From: Miltoncostaea marina
Lineage (GTDB): Bacteria; Actinomycetota; Thermoleophilia; Miltoncostaeales; Miltoncostaeaceae
Reading direction: 5' to 3'
DNA: 64,000 nucleotides
Assembly (NCBI RefSeq): GCF_018141525.1
Contig: NZ_CP064655.1
Location: forward strand, 1,240,001 to 1,304,000
The position numbers and the translations under genes were made by a program. This document shows positions 43,598-51,127 of this stretch, piece after piece (the first letter of the stretch is position 1; the number at the start of each line of letters is the position of its first letter). Under the pieces are notes generated by a model. That model did not search any database. It worked only from the letters and a program-made list of their open reading frames with translations, and was not told where the DNA came from.

Positions 43598-45184
43598 TCA
43601 CCGGCGCCGCGGCATGACGCCGTTCGCACCGAGCGCGAACACCAGCAGGCCGGCGAGCACGGCGGCGCCGACGCCGTACCGCAGGCCGTCGTCTGACTGT
43701 CCGACGTGGAGCACCCGGTCCCATGCGACGTGCAGCCGGCCACCGGGCAGTCCGGCCACGGGGGCGTCAGGGTCGCCGACATGGAGCTCGAGCGCCCGGT
43801 CGCCCTCGCCGTCGCCGTGCGCGCTCAACTGGATCGGGACCCGGCTCGCCACGAGGCGACCGCCGGTGCGGACCTCCCCGAGGGCGAACACGGCCACGTC
43901 CGCCTGCATCTCGGGCAGGTCACCGGAGCCGATCCCCGTGCGGCCGTGCTGCCAGACGTCGAGCCCCACCCCGCGCCAGGTCGTGTGCCGACCGCGTGGC
44001 TCGTTCACGAGCGCGGTGCTCGCGCGCACCTCGAACGCCTGGCCGGCCGGGTGCTCGATCGTGGCCTCCAGGAGGACGTCGTCGTGAGGCGGCTGCGGTG
44101 TCGTCCTGCGCCGGGAGTCCTCGACGCGCGCGCTGAGCGAGCTCTCGCTCGACGCCATCGGGCCACCGTCTCGCGGCGGGACCTCGATGGAGGCGGGCCC
44201 GGCGGCCTCGAGCGAGGCTGATCCGCTGGCGTCCGAGGCGGCCGGCAAGGCGATGAGCAGAGGAACGACGAGGACCAGCGGCAGCCCGGCGGCGGCCCGG
44301 AGGCCGGCGCGCGCACGTGGTCCACCGGCGGTGCTCGGTTGGCGCGCGCCGCGGAACAGGCGGGTCGCGGCGGTGAGCACCAGCGCCATGGCGGCCACGT
44401 AGACGGGCACGCTGATGAGCCACAGCTCGCGATAGCTGAGCCATTCCACCGTCGATGACGGCGGTGCCTCGTCGAGCAGGCGAAGCGGCGTATCGGGCAG
44501 CCCTGTCGGTCCGAGGTAATCGCCATAGGCAGCCCAGGCCAGCGCCAGGACGACGGCGCCCGAGAGCGCCCCCACCAGGTCGCGTCCCGCAAGGCTCCAC
44601 CACATGAGGATGATCGGGACCGTGATGGCGAACCGCATCACGAACCAGGTGACGCCCGGGAAGTCGCCGAGCGCGAGTGCCGCCCCGCCTCCGGCGAGCA
44701 CCAGGACGGCGATCGCCGTGATGAGCGCCGCGAGCGCGTCGCGCGCCGGGGGGCCGGTGTCCGCCGCGACAGGGCGTCGCCGCCGGAGCCACAGGGCGGT
44801 CAGGTAGCCCAGGTAGTACACGCTGAAATGGATCGGCAGGCCGGTGAGCCAGGTGTGCTCGAAGTCGAGCCAATGCGGTGAGGCGGGAAGGCCGATGGGG
44901 GCGAAGGACCAGTAATAGACGGTGAGGACGAGCGTCTGCGCGGCCGCGAGGATCGCCCCCCGGCCGGCTCCCAGACCGAGCCAGGCGGTGCCAAGGCCGA
45001 AGACGGTCGCGATCAGGAGCGTGTCCGTGATCCAGTAGCTCCAGTAGGGATCGTTCTCCCAGGCGAGTCCATGGCCGAGGGCCGCATCGATGAACATCGC
45101 GAACACGGCCGCCGGGATGGCGAACTTCGCGACCTCCCGAAGCGTCCAGGAGCGCGGCGTCTCCTCGCTGCCCGCTTCCGTCAT
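43598..45184 (-). CDS. Multi-spanning membrane protein with extracytoplasmic C-terminal domain
   Basis: A 528-residue protein. About nine helices occupy residues 15-320 (FAIPAAVFAMFIDAALGHGL, TDTLLIATVFGLGTAWLGLG, HFSVYYLGYLTALWLRRRR, ALAALITAIAVLVLAGGGAA, ISVPVYVAAMALVLTAATRL, AAAGLPLVLVVPLLIALPAA). Then follows a soluble domain (VLLEATIEHPAGQAFEVRAS, TTWRGVGLDVWQHGRTGIGS, RVPIQLSAHGDGEGDRALEL) and a last helix near YGVGAAVLAGLLVFALGANG. ATG 45184 was chosen for GGAG 6 bases upstream; ATG 45196 and 45211 are also in frame. Codon use is less biased than in the rest of the window. No family recognised. Confidence 0.7.
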   Translation of the reverse strand: MTEAGSEETPRSWTLREVAKFAIPAAVFAMFIDAALGHGLAWENDPYWSYWITDTLLIATVFGLGTAWLGLGAGRGAILAAAQTLVLTVYYWSFAPIGLPASPHWLDFEHTWLTGLPIHFSVYYLGYLTALWLRRRRPVAADTGPPARDALAALITAIAVLVLAGGGAALALGDFPGVTWFVMRFAITVPIILMWWSLAGRDLVGALSGAVVLALAWAAYGDYLGPTGLPDTPLRLLDEAPPSSTVEWLSYRELWLISVPVYVAAMALVLTAATRLFRGARQPSTAGGPRARAGLRAAAGLPLVLVVPLLIALPAASDASGSASLEAAGPASIEVPPRDGGPMASSESSLSARVEDSRRRTTPQPPHDDVLLEATIEHPAGQAFEVRASTALVNEPRGRHTTWRGVGLDVWQHGRTGIGSGDLPEMQADVAVFALGEVRTGGRLVASRVPIQLSAHGDGEGDRALELHVGDPDAPVAGLPGGRLHVAWDRVLHVGQSDDGLRYGVGAAVLAGLLVFALGANGVMPRRR

Positions 45185-46247
45185 CTCGTTCTCCATCCCT
45201 CGGCGTGGCATCGTGGCTACATACGGCGATCCAACAGCGGTGCGGCCGGCCGGTCGATGTTCGTTTACCTTCCATTGACGGAAATGCGCCGCATGTTGAC
45301 GAGCTGTTTGCAGCCCACCGTCGGATCGAGGGCCGACGCGATGCGCGTCGGCGTGCTCGAGGGGGCCGCTCCTCGGGCCGCCGCCACGGTCCGCTCGGCT
45401 CGGAGGGGCGCCGCCGGACATGGTCGGCGCGGGCTCCGAGGTCGGGCCCGGGAGGATGCTGCCGCACACCCACGCCGCTCTTCGGGGCCCTCGACCGGCG
45501 GCCCCGTACACCCGCGCGGGCTGTCGAGGTGTTCCGGATGGCGGGGGTCGGCTCGCGGCGTGGTCGGATGCTCGGCCTTCGCTGGCGGACCTGGACTTCG
45601 CGGTGCGCACGGTCGCGGTCGCCCGCGCCGTCGAGCGGGGGCGCGGGCGCGGCGGCGCCCCGCCGCGGCGGAGCGTCACGGCGCCGACGAGCGGCAGGCC
45701 CCGCCGGGTGGCCCCCTCGCGGAGGCTCGGGACGCGCGTGGCGGGCTGGTACGCCGGGAGCGTCATCGCGAGCGGGTCCTCAGGGACCGGCGACGTCCGG
45801 CTCGGCCGCGATGGCGGCCGATGGACGGGACCACGTGCGCGGAAGCGCGAACCCGGTGACGGCGCTCGCCGGCGAGTTCCAGGCACCGGCCGCTCGCCGG
45901 TCCGTCGCGCCCAGGGCAGCGGCGGTCAGGACGCTGTGGGCCTGGCTCCATGCACGGTCGAGGGGGGCGACGAGGACCCCCTCGACGAGCCCACGACCCT
46001 GCTCGCGGCACGGATGAGCTGATGCCCTCTCGCCTCGGCGCGCGCGGGGTGGGGGCTCGCCTGGCCGACGACGACCGACGGCGCGTGGCCGTCAGGTCTC
46101 GCGCGGCGAGGTCCGTGGCGAGGCTTCGGGCGACCGCGCTCCGAAGCGCCGATCTCCGGGTGCTTCACTTCGCGCTGGACCATCCGGGCGCGCCTGCAGC
46201 GGCCGCATCGCGCGTGGGGCACGGGCCCGGCCGCTAGCGTCCGACCC
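45185..46247. other. 1-kb region without a convincing gene
   Basis: Open frames exist on both strands but their products are Arg/Pro/Gly-rich with no family features, and none has a good ribosome site. The first 130 bp are the least G/C-rich DNA here and probably hold the promoter of the membrane protein: TTCC-ATTGAC-GGAA (45270-45283) and ATGCG-C-CGCAT (45284-45294) are adjacent inverted repeats. The rest may be degraded coding sequence. No copy of the tRNA 3' end is present. Confidence 0.55.
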
Positions 46248-46658
46248 ATGGGCAGCGGCCGGCTCTCGCGTCACGCCGTCAGCGCCTCGGTCGTGGCGGG
46301 CGGCGCCGCCGGCGCGCTCCTGCGGTTCGGCCTCGACCAGGCGCTGCCGGTCCGGCCGGGCGGCTGGCCGTGGGCGACCTTCACCGCCAACCTGGTGGGC
46401 GCCGCGCTGCTCGGCTACGTGGCGACGCGCCTCCTGGAGCGGCTGCCGCCGAGCCCCCGCATGCGGCCGCTGCTCGGCACCGGGCTGTGCGGCGCGCTGA
46501 CGACGTTCTCCTCGCTGCAGGTCGAGGCGATCGGGCTCGCCCGCGACGGCCACCCGGGGCTCGCGGCGACCTACGTCGGCACGTCGATCGGGGGCGGCCT
46601 GCTGTGCGTGGTCCTGGCCGGCGCGCTCGTGCGCCGCGCGCGGCTGGGGGCGGCCTGA
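46248..46658 (+). CDS. crcB: Fluoride channel FluC/CrcB, first subunit
   Basis: A 136-residue fluoride channel subunit with four helices, [20 protein letters not shown] (with the start-Arg), [20 protein letters not shown] (the conserved Asn), [20 protein letters not shown] (Phe box TTFSS with the central Na+ site), and [20 protein letters not shown]. FluC dimers export F-. ATG at 46248. The second subunit follows 5 bp later, so the channel is probably a heterodimer, as in other actinobacteria with paired genes. Confidence 0.93.
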
Positions 46659-46663
46659 CCACG

Positions 46664-47023
46664 GTGCTGCAGGCCCTCGGCGTCGCGGGCCTCGGCGGCC
46701 TGGCCGCACTCGCACGCTTCCTGCTCGACGGCGCGGTGTCGCGGCGGCTCGGCGGCGACCTGCCGTGGGGCACGCTCGCGGTCAACGCGGTCGGCGCGTT
46801 CCTGGCGGGCCTGCTGGCGGGGGCCGCGCCCGGCGAGACCTGGCGGGTGCTGGTCGCCGTGGCGGCGCTCGGCTCGTTCAGCACCTTCTCGACCTGGATG
46901 CTCGAGACCCAGCGCCTGGCCGAGGAGGGCCGGCCGGTGCTGGCGGCGGCCAACCTCGTGCTGCCGCTGGCCGCCGGCATCGCCCTGGCGGGGGCGGGCT
47001 GGGCGATCGGCGCCCGGCTGTGA
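46664..47023 (+). CDS. crcB: Fluoride channel FluC/CrcB, second subunit
   Basis: A 119-residue subunit with LGVAGLGGLAALARFLLDGA, WGTLAVNAVGAFLAGLLAGA, ALGSFSTFSTWMLETQRLAE (Phe box FSTFS), and AAANLVLPLAAGIALAGAGW. GTG 46664 gives a normal N-terminus; a CTG overlapping the upstream TGA (46655) is less likely. It overlaps the next gene's GTG by 4 bp. With the first subunit it should form the dual-topology fluoride exit pore. Confidence 0.92.
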   Translation: MLQALGVAGLGGLAALARFLLDGAVSRRLGGDLPWGTLAVNAVGAFLAGLLAGAAPGETWRVLVAVAALGSFSTFSTWMLETQRLAEEGRPVLAAANLVLPLAAGIALAGAGWAIGARL

Positions 47024-48099
47024 GCGCCGAAGGCCTCAAGCTGGTGGTGCACTTCGGCGAGAGCGACCGGGCGGGCGGGCGCCTGCTCGCCGACGCCCTG
47101 ATGGACCTGTGCGGGCGCCACGGGGTGCTCGCGTCGGTGCTGATGCGCGGGGTCGAGGGGTTCGGCGTCAAGCACCGGCTGCGCACCGACCGGCTGCTGA
47201 CCCTCTCCGACGACCTGCCGCTCGTCGCGGTGGCGGTGGACGTCGCGGAGCGGATCGAGCGGCTGGTCCCCGAGGTCGCCGCGATCGTGGGGCACGGGCT
47301 GGTCACCCTCGAGCGCGTCGTCGTGGCGGACCCGCGGCAGGGCGGCGACCTCGGCGCGCCCGGCGACGCGGACGTCAAGCTCGTCGTCTACTGCGGGCGG
47401 TCGGAGCGGCGCGACGGCCGCACGGCGCTCCGCGCCGCGCTCGCGACGCTGCGCGAGGCGGGGGTGCCCGGCGCCACGGCCCTCGCGGGGCTCGACGGCA
47501 CCATCGCCCGCGAGCGCCACCGGGCGCGCTTCCTCGCCCGCAACGCGCGGGTGCCGGCGATGGTGCTGAGCGTCGGCCCCCCGGAGCGCTACGCCGAGCT
47601 GCTGCCCCGCCTGGGCGACGCGCTGCCCGGGCCCCACGTCGTGACCGTGGAGCGCGTGCGCGTGGTGCGGCACGACGGGCGGGTCACCGGCGAGCCGCCC
47701 GCCGTGCCGGCGCGCGACGCGCGGGGACTGGCCATGTGGCAGCGGGTCTCGGTGCTCGCCGGCGAGTGGGAGCGCTGGGACGGCGCGCCCCTGCACGCCC
47801 AGCTCGTCCGCCGGCTGCGCGAGGCCGGGGCCGCCGGCGCCACCGTGCTGCGGGGCGTGGCGGGGCACTCCGCCGGGCGTCCCGCCCACGGCGACCGGCT
47901 GCTCGCCGTGCGGCGGCGCACGCCGGTGCTCGTGACCTTCATCGACACGGTGCCGGAGATCGCGCGGCTCTGGCCGCTCGTGGCGCGGGCGACGGCGACG
48001 ACCGGCCTCGTCACGTGCGAGGTCGTGCCCGCCGCGCGCGCGGCGGGGCCCGCCGGGGTCAGCGGGGGGCTCGCGCTGGCGGATCCGCGCGGCGGCTGA
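47020..48099 (+). CDS. Triple-DUF190 protein of the fluoride operon
   Basis: A 359-residue protein made of three DUF190 units of about 110 residues: LKLVVHFGESDRAGGRLLAD..., VKLVVYCGRSERRDGRTALR..., and WQRVSVLAGEWERWDGAPLH... Each has the conserved leading strand, the ALMDLCGRHGVLASVLMRGV-like helix and strand, and a VLVTFIDTVPEI-like end. DUF190 proteins (PII-like ferredoxin fold) are usually single-domain and sit beside crcB. A covalent trimer could mimic a PII trimer in one chain. GTG overlaps the crcB stop. Role probably regulatory for fluoride export. Confidence 0.85.
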   Translation: MSAEGLKLVVHFGESDRAGGRLLADALMDLCGRHGVLASVLMRGVEGFGVKHRLRTDRLLTLSDDLPLVAVAVDVAERIERLVPEVAAIVGHGLVTLERVVVADPRQGGDLGAPGDADVKLVVYCGRSERRDGRTALRAALATLREAGVPGATALAGLDGTIARERHRARFLARNARVPAMVLSVGPPERYAELLPRLGDALPGPHVVTVERVRVVRHDGRVTGEPPAVPARDARGLAMWQRVSVLAGEWERWDGAPLHAQLVRRLREAGAAGATVLRGVAGHSAGRPAHGDRLLAVRRRTPVLVTFIDTVPEIARLWPLVARATATTGLVTCEVVPAARAAGPAGVSGGLALADPRGG

Positions 48100-48542: not shown

Positions 48543-49244
48543 TCAGGACGCCCCGGCCTCCCGGGGCGGCAGCCGGCCGCCGGCGGCGAGGCGCATGAGG
48601 GGGGAGTCGAAGTCGACGTCGGCCGCCGTGCGCTCGGCGCGGGCCGCGTCGCCCGCGAAGCGGTGGTCGTGGCCCGACCAGGTGCGGTCCGCCACGGCCC
48701 GCGCGACCCCGGCGCCGACGACGACCGCCAGCTCGGCCGCCGCCCGCTGGATGCGCCTGCCGAGCTCGGCCGAGCCCCAGTCCTCGGGCGCGGCGTAGAC
48801 CGAGGTCGGCAGCGTGAGCGCCCGCATGTAGGCGAACAGCGGCCGCATGTGGTCGTCGACCACGAGCGAGTGGCGCGGGGAGCCGCCCGTCGCGGCCAGC
48901 AGCACGGGCGTGGCGATGAGGAGGTCCTCGTCGAGCACGTCGACGAACGACTTGAGCAGCCCGCTGACGCCGGCCTTGTAGACGGGCGTCGCCACGATGA
49001 GCCCGTCGGCGGCCGCCAGCCGGTCGATGGCCTCCTGCACCGCCTGGCCGGGGAAGCCGGCGACGAGGGCGCGGGCCGTGTCGGCCGCCAGCGGCCCCAG
49101 CTCGACGACGCTCACGGTCGCCGGGGTCCCCGCCTCGGCGAGCAGGTCGAGGCCCGCCTGGGCGATGCGGTCGGCGAGCGCGCGCGTGGAGGACGGGGTG
49201 CCCGTGCCGGCGCTGACGACGACGAGGCGCGTGGGCCCGGCCAT
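48543..49244 (-). CDS. FMN reductase, partner of the LLM monooxygenase
   Basis: A 233-residue NADPH:FMN reductase of the CE1759/SsuE-like group. RLVVVSAGTGTPSSTRALAD forms the phosphate loop, and GLIVATPVYKAGVSGLLKSF, LLAATGGSPRHSLVVDDHMR and LFAYMRALTLPTSVYAA are the family's other landmarks. ATG 49244; it follows the LLM gene by 2 bp, so the two form an operon. It supplies reduced FMN to the monooxygenase. A typical two-component system. Confidence 0.92.
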   Translation of the reverse strand: MAGPTRLVVVSAGTGTPSSTRALADRIAQAGLDLLAEAGTPATVSVVELGPLAADTARALVAGFPGQAVQEAIDRLAAADGLIVATPVYKAGVSGLLKSFVDVLDEDLLIATPVLLAATGGSPRHSLVVDDHMRPLFAYMRALTLPTSVYAAPEDWGSAELGRRIQRAAAELAVVVGAGVARAVADRTWSGHDHRFAGDAARAERTAADVDFDSPLMRLAAGGRLPPREAGAS

Positions 49245-49246
49245 GC

Positions 49247-50437
49247 TCAGCGCACCAGCGGGCGGTCGGCGAGGACGCCCGGGTCGGTGTCCAGGTAGGG
49301 CGACGTGCCGGTGAGGTTGTCGCCGCGGTTCGGGTTGGGGCGCGCCTGACGGGGCTCCGCGTCGCCGTAGGTCGCGCGCACGAGGCTCGCGTGCGTCGGC
49401 GCGTCCGGCACGCCGGGGGCCCGGCGGGCGGCCATCTCCCTGCGCAGCACCGGCACCACCTCGGTGCCGAGCAGCTCGACCTGCTCGAGCGCCATCTCCA
49501 CGGGCAGGCCGGCGTGGTCGACGATCCACAGCTGGCGCTGGTAGTCGCCGAAGCCCTCCTGGAAGCCGAGCGTCTTCTCGATCACCTCCTGCGGGCTGCC
49601 CACCGAGAGCGGGGTCGCACGCATGAACTCCTCCAGGTCGTAGCTCGCCCCGTAGAGCGGCGAGCCCTCGAAGTAGGGGCGGAAGGTGCGGACGGCGTCC
49701 TGCGAGCGCCGGGCGATGAACGCCTGGCCGCCGAGCCCCACGATCGCCTGCTCGGGCGTGCCGTGGCCGTGGTGGGCGAAGCGCTGCCGGTAGAACTCCA
49801 CGAGCGGCTTGAAGTGCAGGTTGGGCGCGAGGATGTTGTTGGCGAAGTAGCCGTTGCCGTAGTAGGCGGCCTGCTCGGCGATCTCCGGGGTGCGGATGGC
49901 GCCGTGCCACACGAAGGGCGGCACGCCGTCGAGTGGCCGGGGGATCGAGGTGAATCCCTGCAGCGGCGTCCGAAAGGCGCCCTCCCAGTCCACCACGTCC
50001 TCGCGCCACAGCCGGTGGAGCAGGTTGTAGTGCTCCAGCGCCAGCTCGACGCCCCGGCGGATGTCCTGGCCGAACCACGGGTAGACCGGCACGGTGTTGC
50101 CGCGGCCCAGCATCAGGTCGACGCGGCCCTTCGCCAGGTGCTGGAGCATCGCGTAGTCCTCGGCGACCTTCACCGGGTCGTTCGTGGTGATGAGGGTCAC
50201 CGCGGTGGAGAGGACGATCCGCTCCGTGACGGCGGCGATGTGCGCGAGCAGCGTGGTCGGCGACGACGAGAAGAACGGCGGGTTGTGGTGCTCGCCGATC
50301 GCGAACACGTCGAGCCCCACCTCGTCGGCGCGCTTCGCGATCCGCACGATCGCGTCGATGCGCTCGGCCTCGCTCGGCGTCCTGCCGGTGACCGCGTCCT
50401 TCGTGATGTCGCTGACCGAGAAGATCCCGAACTGCAT
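49247..50437 (-). CDS. LLM-class flavin-dependent monooxygenase
   Basis: A 396-residue luciferase-like monooxygenase: FGIFSVSDITKDAVTGRTPS, DVFAIGEHHNPPFFSSSPTT, RIVLSTAVTLITTNDPVKVA, GRVDLMLGRGNTVPVYPWFG and PFVWHGAIRTPEIAEQAAYY are typical. It uses FMNH2 supplied by the reductase gene 2 bp downstream. The C-terminal 50 residues (HASLVRATYGDAEPRQARPN) are unusual for the family. ATG 50437. The promoter region carries a near-palindrome that matches the MarR site at 28308 and abuts the -10 box, so its expression is probably controlled by that MarR. Substrate not predicted. Confidence 0.93.
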   Translation of the reverse strand: MQFGIFSVSDITKDAVTGRTPSEAERIDAIVRIAKRADEVGLDVFAIGEHHNPPFFSSSPTTLLAHIAAVTERIVLSTAVTLITTNDPVKVAEDYAMLQHLAKGRVDLMLGRGNTVPVYPWFGQDIRRGVELALEHYNLLHRLWREDVVDWEGAFRTPLQGFTSIPRPLDGVPPFVWHGAIRTPEIAEQAAYYGNGYFANNILAPNLHFKPLVEFYRQRFAHHGHGTPEQAIVGLGGQAFIARRSQDAVRTFRPYFEGSPLYGASYDLEEFMRATPLSVGSPQEVIEKTLGFQEGFGDYQRQLWIVDHAGLPVEMALEQVELLGTEVVPVLRREMAARRAPGVPDAPTHASLVRATYGDAEPRQARPNPNRGDNLTGTSPYLDTDPGVLADRPLVR

Positions 50438-50456
50438 CGCCCACCGCCCTCGTCTG

Positions 50457-50477
50457 TTGCTTGCGCAATCAAGTATA
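50457..50477 (-). promoter_or_regulatory. Promoter and MarR-type operator of the LLM/FMN-reductase operon
   Basis: On the minus strand the -10 TATACT (50477-50472) shares its last T with TTGATTGCGCAAGCAA (50472-50457), 14 of 16 bases identical to the site at 28308-28323. Spacing relative to the -10 is the same. Confidence 0.65.
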
Positions 50478-50578
50478 GCGGGCCCCGTCCGCCGTGTGAC
50501 CGCCGCCGCCGCCCGTCGCAATTCGCCGGGTGGACGCTCCCGCGCCGGATCCTGGACCCCGGGTCCTCCGGCCCGACG

Positions 50579-51127
50579 ATGCGCGGTCGCGCCGTGGGGG
50601 GTGCGGCCGCCGCGATCGCGCTGGCCCTCGTGATGCTCGCGGCCGCCTGGCTCGGCGCCACCGCGGAAGGGGGGGCGCAGGCGGCGGTCGCATCCGGCCC
50701 CGTGACCGCGCGCCCGGTCCACGAGCCGGCCGTCGCCGGGCCGCCCGTGGTGCTCGAGATCACCCGCGCGAAGGTGATCTCCCGCGTCGACGCCCTCGCG
50801 TCGCCGTCCGGCGATCCGGGCCCGGGCGCGGGCGCGTTCGCCGCCCGACCGCAACTCGTCCGGGACCTCGACTGCGACAACGTGTCCGCGCGGGGACGCT
50901 CGGTGGCTCGGAGCCGCACCGCTTCCACGGCCACGGCGACGGGATCGCCCGCGAGCCCTGACGGGGCGCTCGCGACGCACGCGTCATCCGCGTGCGCGGG
51001 CGGGGGGCGCTGCCGCCGCGGATCGAGCCCGGTCGCGCGCGAGCCGACGGGCGGCGCCGGCGCCCCCCGCGGGCGCCGGCGCCCTACCCCCACCAGACGA
51101 CGGTGCCGACCTCGGCCACGTCGCTGA
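50579..51127 (+). CDS. Possible secreted protein (weak support)
   Basis: An open frame of 182 codons that begins with a credible signal sequence or anchor (GGAAAAIALALVMLAAAWLG), then a Pro/Val-rich segment (SGPVTARPVHEPAVAGPPVV, EITRAKVISRVDALA). Further on it becomes Ser/Thr/Arg-rich and overlaps the convergent small gene at 51084. The 3' half does not look protein-like, so a frameshift or an earlier stop is possible. No ribosome site of quality. I keep it because the N-terminus is plausible; the rest is doubtful. Confidence 0.3.
   Translation: MRGRAVGGAAAAIALALVMLAAAWLGATAEGGAQAAVASGPVTARPVHEPAVAGPPVVLEITRAKVISRVDALASPSGDPGPGAGAFAARPQLVRDLDCDNVSARGRSVARSRTASTATATGSPASPDGALATHASSACAGGGRCRRGSSPVAREPTGGAGAPRGRRRPTPTRRRCRPRPRR

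Follow-up and report, generated by a model that had tools for sequence, protein, structure and literature searches.

A 64,000-nucleotide stretch of DNA from Miltoncostaea marina (NZ_CP064655.1, positions 1,240,001 to 1,304,000; the window, in whose own numbering all coordinates are given) carries two tandem genes for FluC (CrcB) fluoride channel subunits, followed by a gene whose product contains three DUF190 domains in one chain. We refer to the subunits as FluC1 and FluC2, to the third protein as the triple and to its domains as D1, D2 and D3. We estimate the probability at about one half that the triple is a covalent, asymmetric PII-like pseudo-trimer that serves as a cytosolic regulatory partner of the FluC1/FluC2 heterodimer. 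This role in channel regulation is suggested by the linkage of the genes, by the riboswitch context in some relatives and by the precedent of the PII proteins.

The FluC-FluC-triple locus

FluC1 (136 residues; 46248..46658, forward strand) matches PF02537 with an E-value of 3.8e-26 and NF010812 with 144.2 bits (cut-off 128). FluC2 (119 residues, GTG start; 46664..47023, forward strand) matches PF02537 at 3.3e-22 and NF010824 with 105.2 bits (cut-off 99). The triple gene (359 residues, GTG start; 47020..48099, forward strand) overlaps the FluC2 stop codon by 4 bp (GTGA), and its product matches PF02641 three times (whole-protein E 2.2e-62). The coordinates, the Pfam matches and the overlap bear out the initial annotation, which had described tandem FluC genes and an overlapping 359-residue chain of three DUF190 units. 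The domains lie on the forward strand at 47038..47325 (D1, residues 7-102; E 1.2e-24), 47377..47664 (D2; 2.5e-14) and 47743..48027 (D3; 4.3e-20), and score 88.1, 54.9 and 73.4 bits, respectively, all above the Pfam gathering score of 23.4. The triple had no NCBIfam match at E up to 0.01, and it scored 17.2 bits against the PII family (GlnB/GlnK, PF00543), below the 25-bit cut-off. The genome, a single contig of 3.37 Mb, has two FluC matches in total, and a genome-wide PF02641 search (E <= 0.001) found no DUF190 match beyond D1-D3.

The order of these genes recurs, and this excludes a chance arrangement: 90 of 98 non-redundant triples are preceded, within 1 kb, by two FluC genes on the same strand. 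The 98 are the set that was left after 18 duplicates (the same genome recorded in two collections) had been removed from 116. A single FluC gene was found within that distance in four cases (L072, L190, L233 and L234). L190 starts at a contig end, the second FluC of L233 (Skermania) sits on a different contig, and the L234 genome carries another, complete FluC-FluC-triple locus. Four more (L146-L149), all from the mycobacterial genus described below, have no FluC within 1 kb upstream. In one set, 32 of 38 loci show the 4-bp overlap of the triple with FluC2; in another, which shares genomes with the first, 61 of 69 show a 4-bp offset. The starts were chosen by a script. Distances among the FluCs correlated with those among D1, D2 or D3 (r 0.56-0.70, 87 loci), a comparison that was made without control for the species tree and that we do not count as evidence.

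Three diverged domains with one origin

In a tree of 117 domains, made up of 18 each of D1, D2 and D3 (from 18 of the 116 triples) together with single and double DUF190 domains, each of the three positions fell on one side of a branch, with Shimodaira-Hasegawa-like approximate likelihood ratio support of 98, 99 and 99. This was a quick tree over 100 columns with several long branches, and its deeper joins are not used. The phylogeny that the initial annotation had proposed thus yields three position-specific clades; the three-domain order therefore arose once and the copies have kept their positions.

The loops differ between the positions. Among 40 single DUF190 domains the loop consensus is rG.eGfGa.sriHT.r.LrLSeDLP. 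In 95 of the 98 non-redundant triples (L059, L086 and L185 were excluded as long-branch or split, and the comparison leaves out DUF190-CBS proteins and separate doubles) it is RG..gFG..h.lrtdr.LtlSEDlP in D1, llGVDGt..G.R..RArff.rN..VP in D2 and lRG.WGfhgdh.PHGDrl.ql.R.vP in D3, a consensus from which D3 of the window deviates at some places (GVAGHSAGRPAHGD). The signature RGxxGFG...LSxDLP, derived from the 40 singles, is kept in D1, absent from D2 and partial in D3. Mean identity within the sets is 0.53, 0.54 and 0.53 for D1, D2 and D3, and 0.25-0.27 between sets; identity to single DUF190 domains is 0.34, 0.29 and 0.32. Loop residues D159, G160, R166 and N175 in D2, and G282 and R299 in D3, are invariant in 68 aligned sequences (two of the sequence sets drew on 67 and 40 of the 73 loci from named genomes). 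Since identity within the sets is equal and each position has its own conserved loop, D2 and D3 are specialised and not decaying.

Predicted structure

The structure prediction suggested in the initial annotation gave a confident single body. AlphaFold2 modelled the triple of the window (67 homologues) with a predicted local distance difference test score (pLDDT) of 92.0 and a predicted template modelling score (pTM) of 0.91, and the Mycolicibacterium litorale homologue (41-row alignment) with 88.1 and 0.89. Such high pTM values imply a fixed arrangement of the domains and contradict the alternative, raised in the same annotation, of three unlinked domains; a single-body fused architecture is very probable. 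The T-loop-like segment of D1 (residues 43-66; 47146..47217, forward strand), assigned from the loop signature and the model, contains the only stretch of three or more residues in the window model with pLDDT below 50 (residues 55-62). Its counterpart in D2 is an ordered hairpin. In the M. litorale model the values below 50 fall at residues 51-63, in the D1 loop, and at 295-297, in D3.

The DUF190 structures 2dcl and 1o51 were matched with a Foldseek probability of 1.00, template modelling (TM) scores by target of 0.78-0.90 and VIA Z-scores of 7.2 and 6.9, and phmmer aligned the triple with 2dcl at 8.3e-14. Chains of PII, SbtB and CutA ranked lower (VIA Z about 4.6-5.4 over 81-106 residues); at these middling values the modelled likeness of fold is support rather than proof. 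Whole-chain Foldseek and VIA matches to chlorite-dismutase-like, sulfur oxygenase and efflux-pump chains were dropped for large root-mean-square deviation, low Z or low TM. PII-type proteins are trimeric and 2dcl has three chains, and for these reasons we infer a body with pseudo-three-fold, trimer-like symmetry. The covalent PII-like assembly that the initial annotation had put forward is thus well supported, as one of three differentiated units, by the domain matches, the single-body model and the conserved linkage.

Distribution of the fused triple

Surveys of the class, the phylum, named genomes and one mycobacterial genus rule out the triple as a peculiarity of the window genome. In the class Thermoleophilia, DUF190 matches occur in 75 of 299 genomes and three or more in 38 of the 299; these 38 yield 39 three-domain frames, one genome having two. 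The phylum survey found a match in 93 of 396 genomes; in 14 of these it covers nearly the entire triple. Named genomes were scanned with two peptide patterns, a search that says nothing on absence elsewhere; it returned 73 loci, all of them triples or cut or split triples except L257. They come from Solirubrobacterales, Pseudonocardiales, Mycobacterium, Mycolicibacterium, Trebonia, Skermania, Jatrophihabitans and others, and from one metagenome-assembled genome (MAG) labelled Bauldia; the Conexibacter sp. and Svornostia abyssi records, both Thermoleophilia, duplicate records of the class survey.

A near full-length triple is present in 59 of 78 sampled genomes of the genus of G436, three of them with one internal stop; of the others, five encode a single DUF190 domain, G722 retains fragments and 13 have no match. 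We judge this genus to be Mycobacterium from sequence features: a neighbouring gene in L149 is presumably of the PE_PGRS type, by its motif, and L151 clusters with Mycolicibacterium litorale in the D1, D2 and D3 clades alike. No fused triple was found among 149 genomes of the phylum of L257, 46 of which have some match; one of them, G817, has three DUF190 domains spread over two genes that adjoin one FluC. Among 249 genomes of the phylum to which the Bauldia MAG is assigned (60 with some match) there was none except in the MAG itself, where the triple is split across two frames. The taxonomic label of this MAG may be a binning error.

The FluC pair: orientation and pore residues

Charge bias was taken as Arg plus Lys on the termini and loop 2 against loops 1 and 3, in 106 loci that include the window and duplicates, in which a genome is recorded in both of two collections. 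FluC1 is positive on the termini and loop 2 (mean +4.80, range 2 to 8); in FluC2 the positive charge lies on loops 1 and 3 (mean -4.88, range -8 to -1). FluCs beside one DUF190 have a bias of -0.11 (range -2 to 1, n=28). The opposite biases indicate a pair of fixed opposite orientation, the signature described for La1 and La2, two homologous Fluc genes with opposite positive-inside bias according to the excerpts retrieved from PMC3755343 (eLife 2013). FluC1 is predicted to be the N-in/C-in subunit and FluC2 the N-out/C-out subunit.

In Ec2 numbering, N41 is present in 105 of 106 FluC1 sequences (one has a gap) and in all 106 FluC2 sequences, and F80 is kept in 106 and 105 of 106, respectively. 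The second pore Phe, F83, is replaced in most FluC1 sequences (Met in 78, Leu in 19, Phe in 5, Val in 4) and by Trp in 105 of 106 FluC2 sequences; the window has Leu in FluC1 (TTFSSL) and Trp in FluC2 (STFSTW). With this Phe replaced in both subunits, the pores of the FluC-FluC-triple lineage are non-canonical. The F83M, F83L and F83W variants of Ec2 are inactive, as stated in the retrieved part of PMC5636608 (eLife 2017), and conduction by FluC pores with such residues is unexplained.

Other DUF190 arrangements and fluoride riboswitches

The statement in the initial annotation that DUF190 proteins near crcB normally have one domain holds for many lineages; it is too general in that FluC can also have DUF190 doubles, fused or separate, or DUF190-CBS fusions as neighbours. 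A single FluC followed by a single DUF190 is found in, for example, L097-L112, L161 and L181, some with a fluoride riboswitch. Fused doubles follow a single FluC in L113 (2699-3412), L114 (4388-5101), L330, L331 and L332; some come from family f6 of the class and others from the phylum of L257, and L330 has one separate DUF190 gene as well as a fused double. In family f23 (L153-L160) two diverged DUF190 domains follow the FluC genes, mostly as separate genes and fused in L156; the gene pairs might form a two-gene hetero-trimer. In L094-L096 a single chain carries a DUF190 domain and, after it, four CBS domains; a FluC gene directly precedes this fusion in L094 and L096. By analogy, this fusion could be an adenylate-sensing version of the partner, as CBS domains commonly bind adenylates. 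A strict rule of one FluC with one DUF190 and two FluCs with three was tried and rejected: it is broken by FluC-DUF190-FluC, FluC-FluC-DUF190 and FluC-FluC-DUF190-DUF190 orders, by FluC with a DUF190 double, and by FluC with one DUF190 and a double.

Forty-eight FluC-FluC-triple loci were scanned for the fluoride riboswitch (RF01734). Of these, 46 distinct loci with upstream sequence were counted, because L195 and L085 come from the same genome and the sequence of L199 starts within FluC1. The riboswitch lies upstream of FluC1 in four of the 46 (L246, L073, L076 and L069), 65-116 nt from the FluC1 domain, and three of these four barely exceed the gathering score (34.4-35.5 against 34). In FluC-DUF190 loci it was found upstream of FluC in 5 of 16, with 40.8-55.3 bits. 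It lies downstream of the triple in L063, L201 and L208; in L063 (6496-8229) the triple is followed by a DUF1232 protein gene, the riboswitch and a Na+/H+ exchanger gene, in what looks like a fluoride-resistance island.

Neighbouring genes

A small GNAT protein is encoded downstream of the triple gene of the window (Pfam). On the reverse strand, at 48543-50980, adjoining genes for a luciferase-like monooxygenase (PF00296, 2e-65) and an NADPH-dependent FMN reductase (PF03358, 8.9e-27) form a two-component flavin oxygenase pair. Upstream of FluC1, a long open frame on the reverse strand (43598-45886) contains hydrophobic stretches and perhaps encodes a membrane protein; it had no Pfam match at E up to 0.001.

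Discussion

Our findings describe a conserved gene set in which a fused, internally differentiated DUF190 protein accompanies a channel pair of opposed charge bias. As a regulatory partner of this pair, the triple would be made from the same operon and translated in step with the two subunits. One chain would then present three different loops, against the three equal loops of a homotrimeric DUF190 or PII protein. The flexible DUF190-type loop of D1 would be the part most likely to reach out to the channel or to change conformation with a ligand; D2 and D3, with conserved loops of their own, may hold the body together and complete the ligand pockets between the domains. PII- and SbtB-type proteins bind adenine nucleotides, and these relatives, with the DUF190-CBS fusions beside FluC, make an adenine nucleotide the most likely small ligand. 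Whether the loop engages the channel on its cytosolic side would depend on the ligand state, and the channel might be shut, for example, when energy or membrane potential drops and fluoride could flow back in, the direction being one that we infer.

A more specific form of this proposal, which we regard as doubtful, makes the triple a natural gate: a nucleotide bound at the specialised D1/D2/D3 interfaces would make the D1 loop plug or open the cytosolic mouth of the channel, and the two FluC pores would be unequal, as the loss of the second Phe in both subunits, to Met or Leu in one and to Trp in the other, suggests. Were it correct, a trimeric sensor would have been turned asymmetric to serve an asymmetric channel, and no earlier example of natural control of a fluoride channel at the protein level would be known, given the statement in the retrieved part of a 2024 review that natural protein-level regulation of such channels has not been identified so far.

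Several observations weigh against a regulatory tie between the triple and the channel. The linkage is mostly one inherited arrangement that has long been kept, since the triple has a single origin, and the 90 loci are not 90 independent proofs. The window has no fluoride riboswitch: RF01734 scans found none in it at the gathering score and none at E up to 1 in 45700-46300. Opposite charge bias is also seen in FluC-DUF190-FluC loci (+3.4/-3.5, 8 loci) and in FluC pairs with two separate DUF190 genes (+2.5/-3.3, 6 loci), in counts that include duplicate records, so channel asymmetry alone does not require a fused triple. Exactly two FluC matches were found in 27 of 28 genomes of the mycobacterial genus that were checked, and the FluC pair is retained in 10 of 10 that lack a triple match (taken from the 13 without a match in the survey of this genus); the channel therefore does not need the triple, and a dependence of the pair on it is ruled out. 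Among 30 triples fetched from this genus, 18 lie beside FluCs and 12 have no FluC within 1.5 kb on either side. The D1 loop of the unlinked triples is mostly GGFG(T/S)G, and that of the linked ones, of which 17 of 18 have an unbroken three-domain frame, is more varied and often FGPxH. Finally, DUF190 genes adjoin genes other than FluC in Pelobacter and Caulobacter, as reported in the excerpts of PMC3543383 and PMC4176598.

Stand-alone mycobacterial triples with a GGFGTGR-type D1 loop are L278, L280, L281, L283-L286 and L289-L293. G436 retains a D1 remnant behind its FluC pair, and its intact triple lies elsewhere in the genome. G722, a 3.3-Mb genome of the same genus in which FluC and the triple are both broken, was counted in favour of a regulatory partnership. 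The triple is thus dispensable for FluC and movable, and it may have taken on a new role; a regulator or adapter therefore fits better than an essential channel subunit.

The unlinked yet unbroken mycobacterial triples, most of them with the GGFG(T/S)G loop, the ten FluC pairs that lack a triple and the neighbours of DUF190 in Pelobacter and Caulobacter would all suit a PII-like adapter that senses a nucleotide or metabolite and acts mainly on a target other than the channel, which aids a general fluoride response, for example in metabolism or pH, and which has moved in some lineages. We consider this unlikely: the great majority of non-redundant triples keep the FluC pair close by, mostly with the 4-bp overlap, and all twelve genomes with an unlinked triple still have exactly two FluCs. 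It is rather improbable that the triple is a soluble fluoride-stress effector (for instance an enzyme, or a binder or scavenger of magnesium or metal fluoride) whose role is to shield cytosolic targets and not to gate the channel. Its fold matches PII-type domains, and searches of Pfam at E up to 1 and of NCBIfam at E up to 0.01 found no enzyme family; the riboswitch upstream of some related operons would agree with such a function, and the PHGD motif of D3 and the Arg-rich loop of D2 could bind anions or metal. That the fusion merely stabilises an ordinary DUF190 trimer, with D2 and D3 degenerate and no new regulatory asymmetry, seems very unlikely to us. The loss of the DUF190 loop motif from D2 and in part from D3 would be expected in that case, and fused doubles did arise elsewhere, but D2 and D3 are as well conserved within their sets as D1 and have invariant loop residues, and hence are not drifting.

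DUF190 proteins encoded beside FluC offer a concrete candidate for a regulatory partner of the channel, and the fused triple lends itself especially well to testing: it is one gene of defined stoichiometry, and its three loops can be mutated singly. It is also a common, natural example of a single-chain PII-like body with three different loops. The literature search, over open-licence PMC papers in the parts retrieved, found no paper, among those listed, that connects DUF190 with FluC or describes the triplication; the mentions of DUF190 that it did return include an Arabidopsis gene label and CutA1 as "formerly DUF190". The possibility, raised in the initial annotation, that the triplication is ubiquitous and known is thus half true: it is widespread in Actinomycetota and was not found described in the literature searched. 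The DUF190 family, its fold and the FluC pair are already known; a conserved DUF190 protein that combines three domains and three loop types and is linked to a heterodimeric FluC is apparently undescribed as far as our searches show. M. tuberculosis Rv3071 might be a homologue, an idea for which the search found no paper.

Comparison with known systems

The domains of the triple pass the Pfam cut-off for DUF190 (COG1993/UPF0166, PF02641) and match its structures (2DCL, PH1503; 1O51, TM0021) at the level of the domain. Those structures consist of single-domain chains, three of them in 2dcl, whereas the triple has three diverged copies in one chain. The single FluC-single DUF190 loci show the same gene partnership, some with a riboswitch, but there the FluC is balanced in charge and the partner has one domain. 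Like FluC1 and FluC2, La1 and La2 are opposite in charge bias, and Mt1 and Mt2 of M. tuberculosis have Met or Trp at the second Phe (PMC5636608, in the excerpts cited above). The retrieved passages on these pairs mention no cytosolic partner, whereas FluC1 and FluC2 are tied to a triple DUF190. SbtB, a binder of adenyl nucleotides and regulator of the carbon-concentrating mechanism according to the available part of PMC10991534, and CutA resemble the triple in fold (VIA Z 4.6-5.0) but are single-domain proteins.

A further parallel in organisation is GlnK and AmtB, the established pairing of a PII protein with a channel. By analogy, the triple shares the PII-like fold and the linkage of its gene to that of a membrane channel that it could control. 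GlnK, however, forms a homotrimer from short chains and sits on AmtB, itself homotrimeric, whereas the triple is fused, differentiated and encoded beside an antiparallel dimeric channel.

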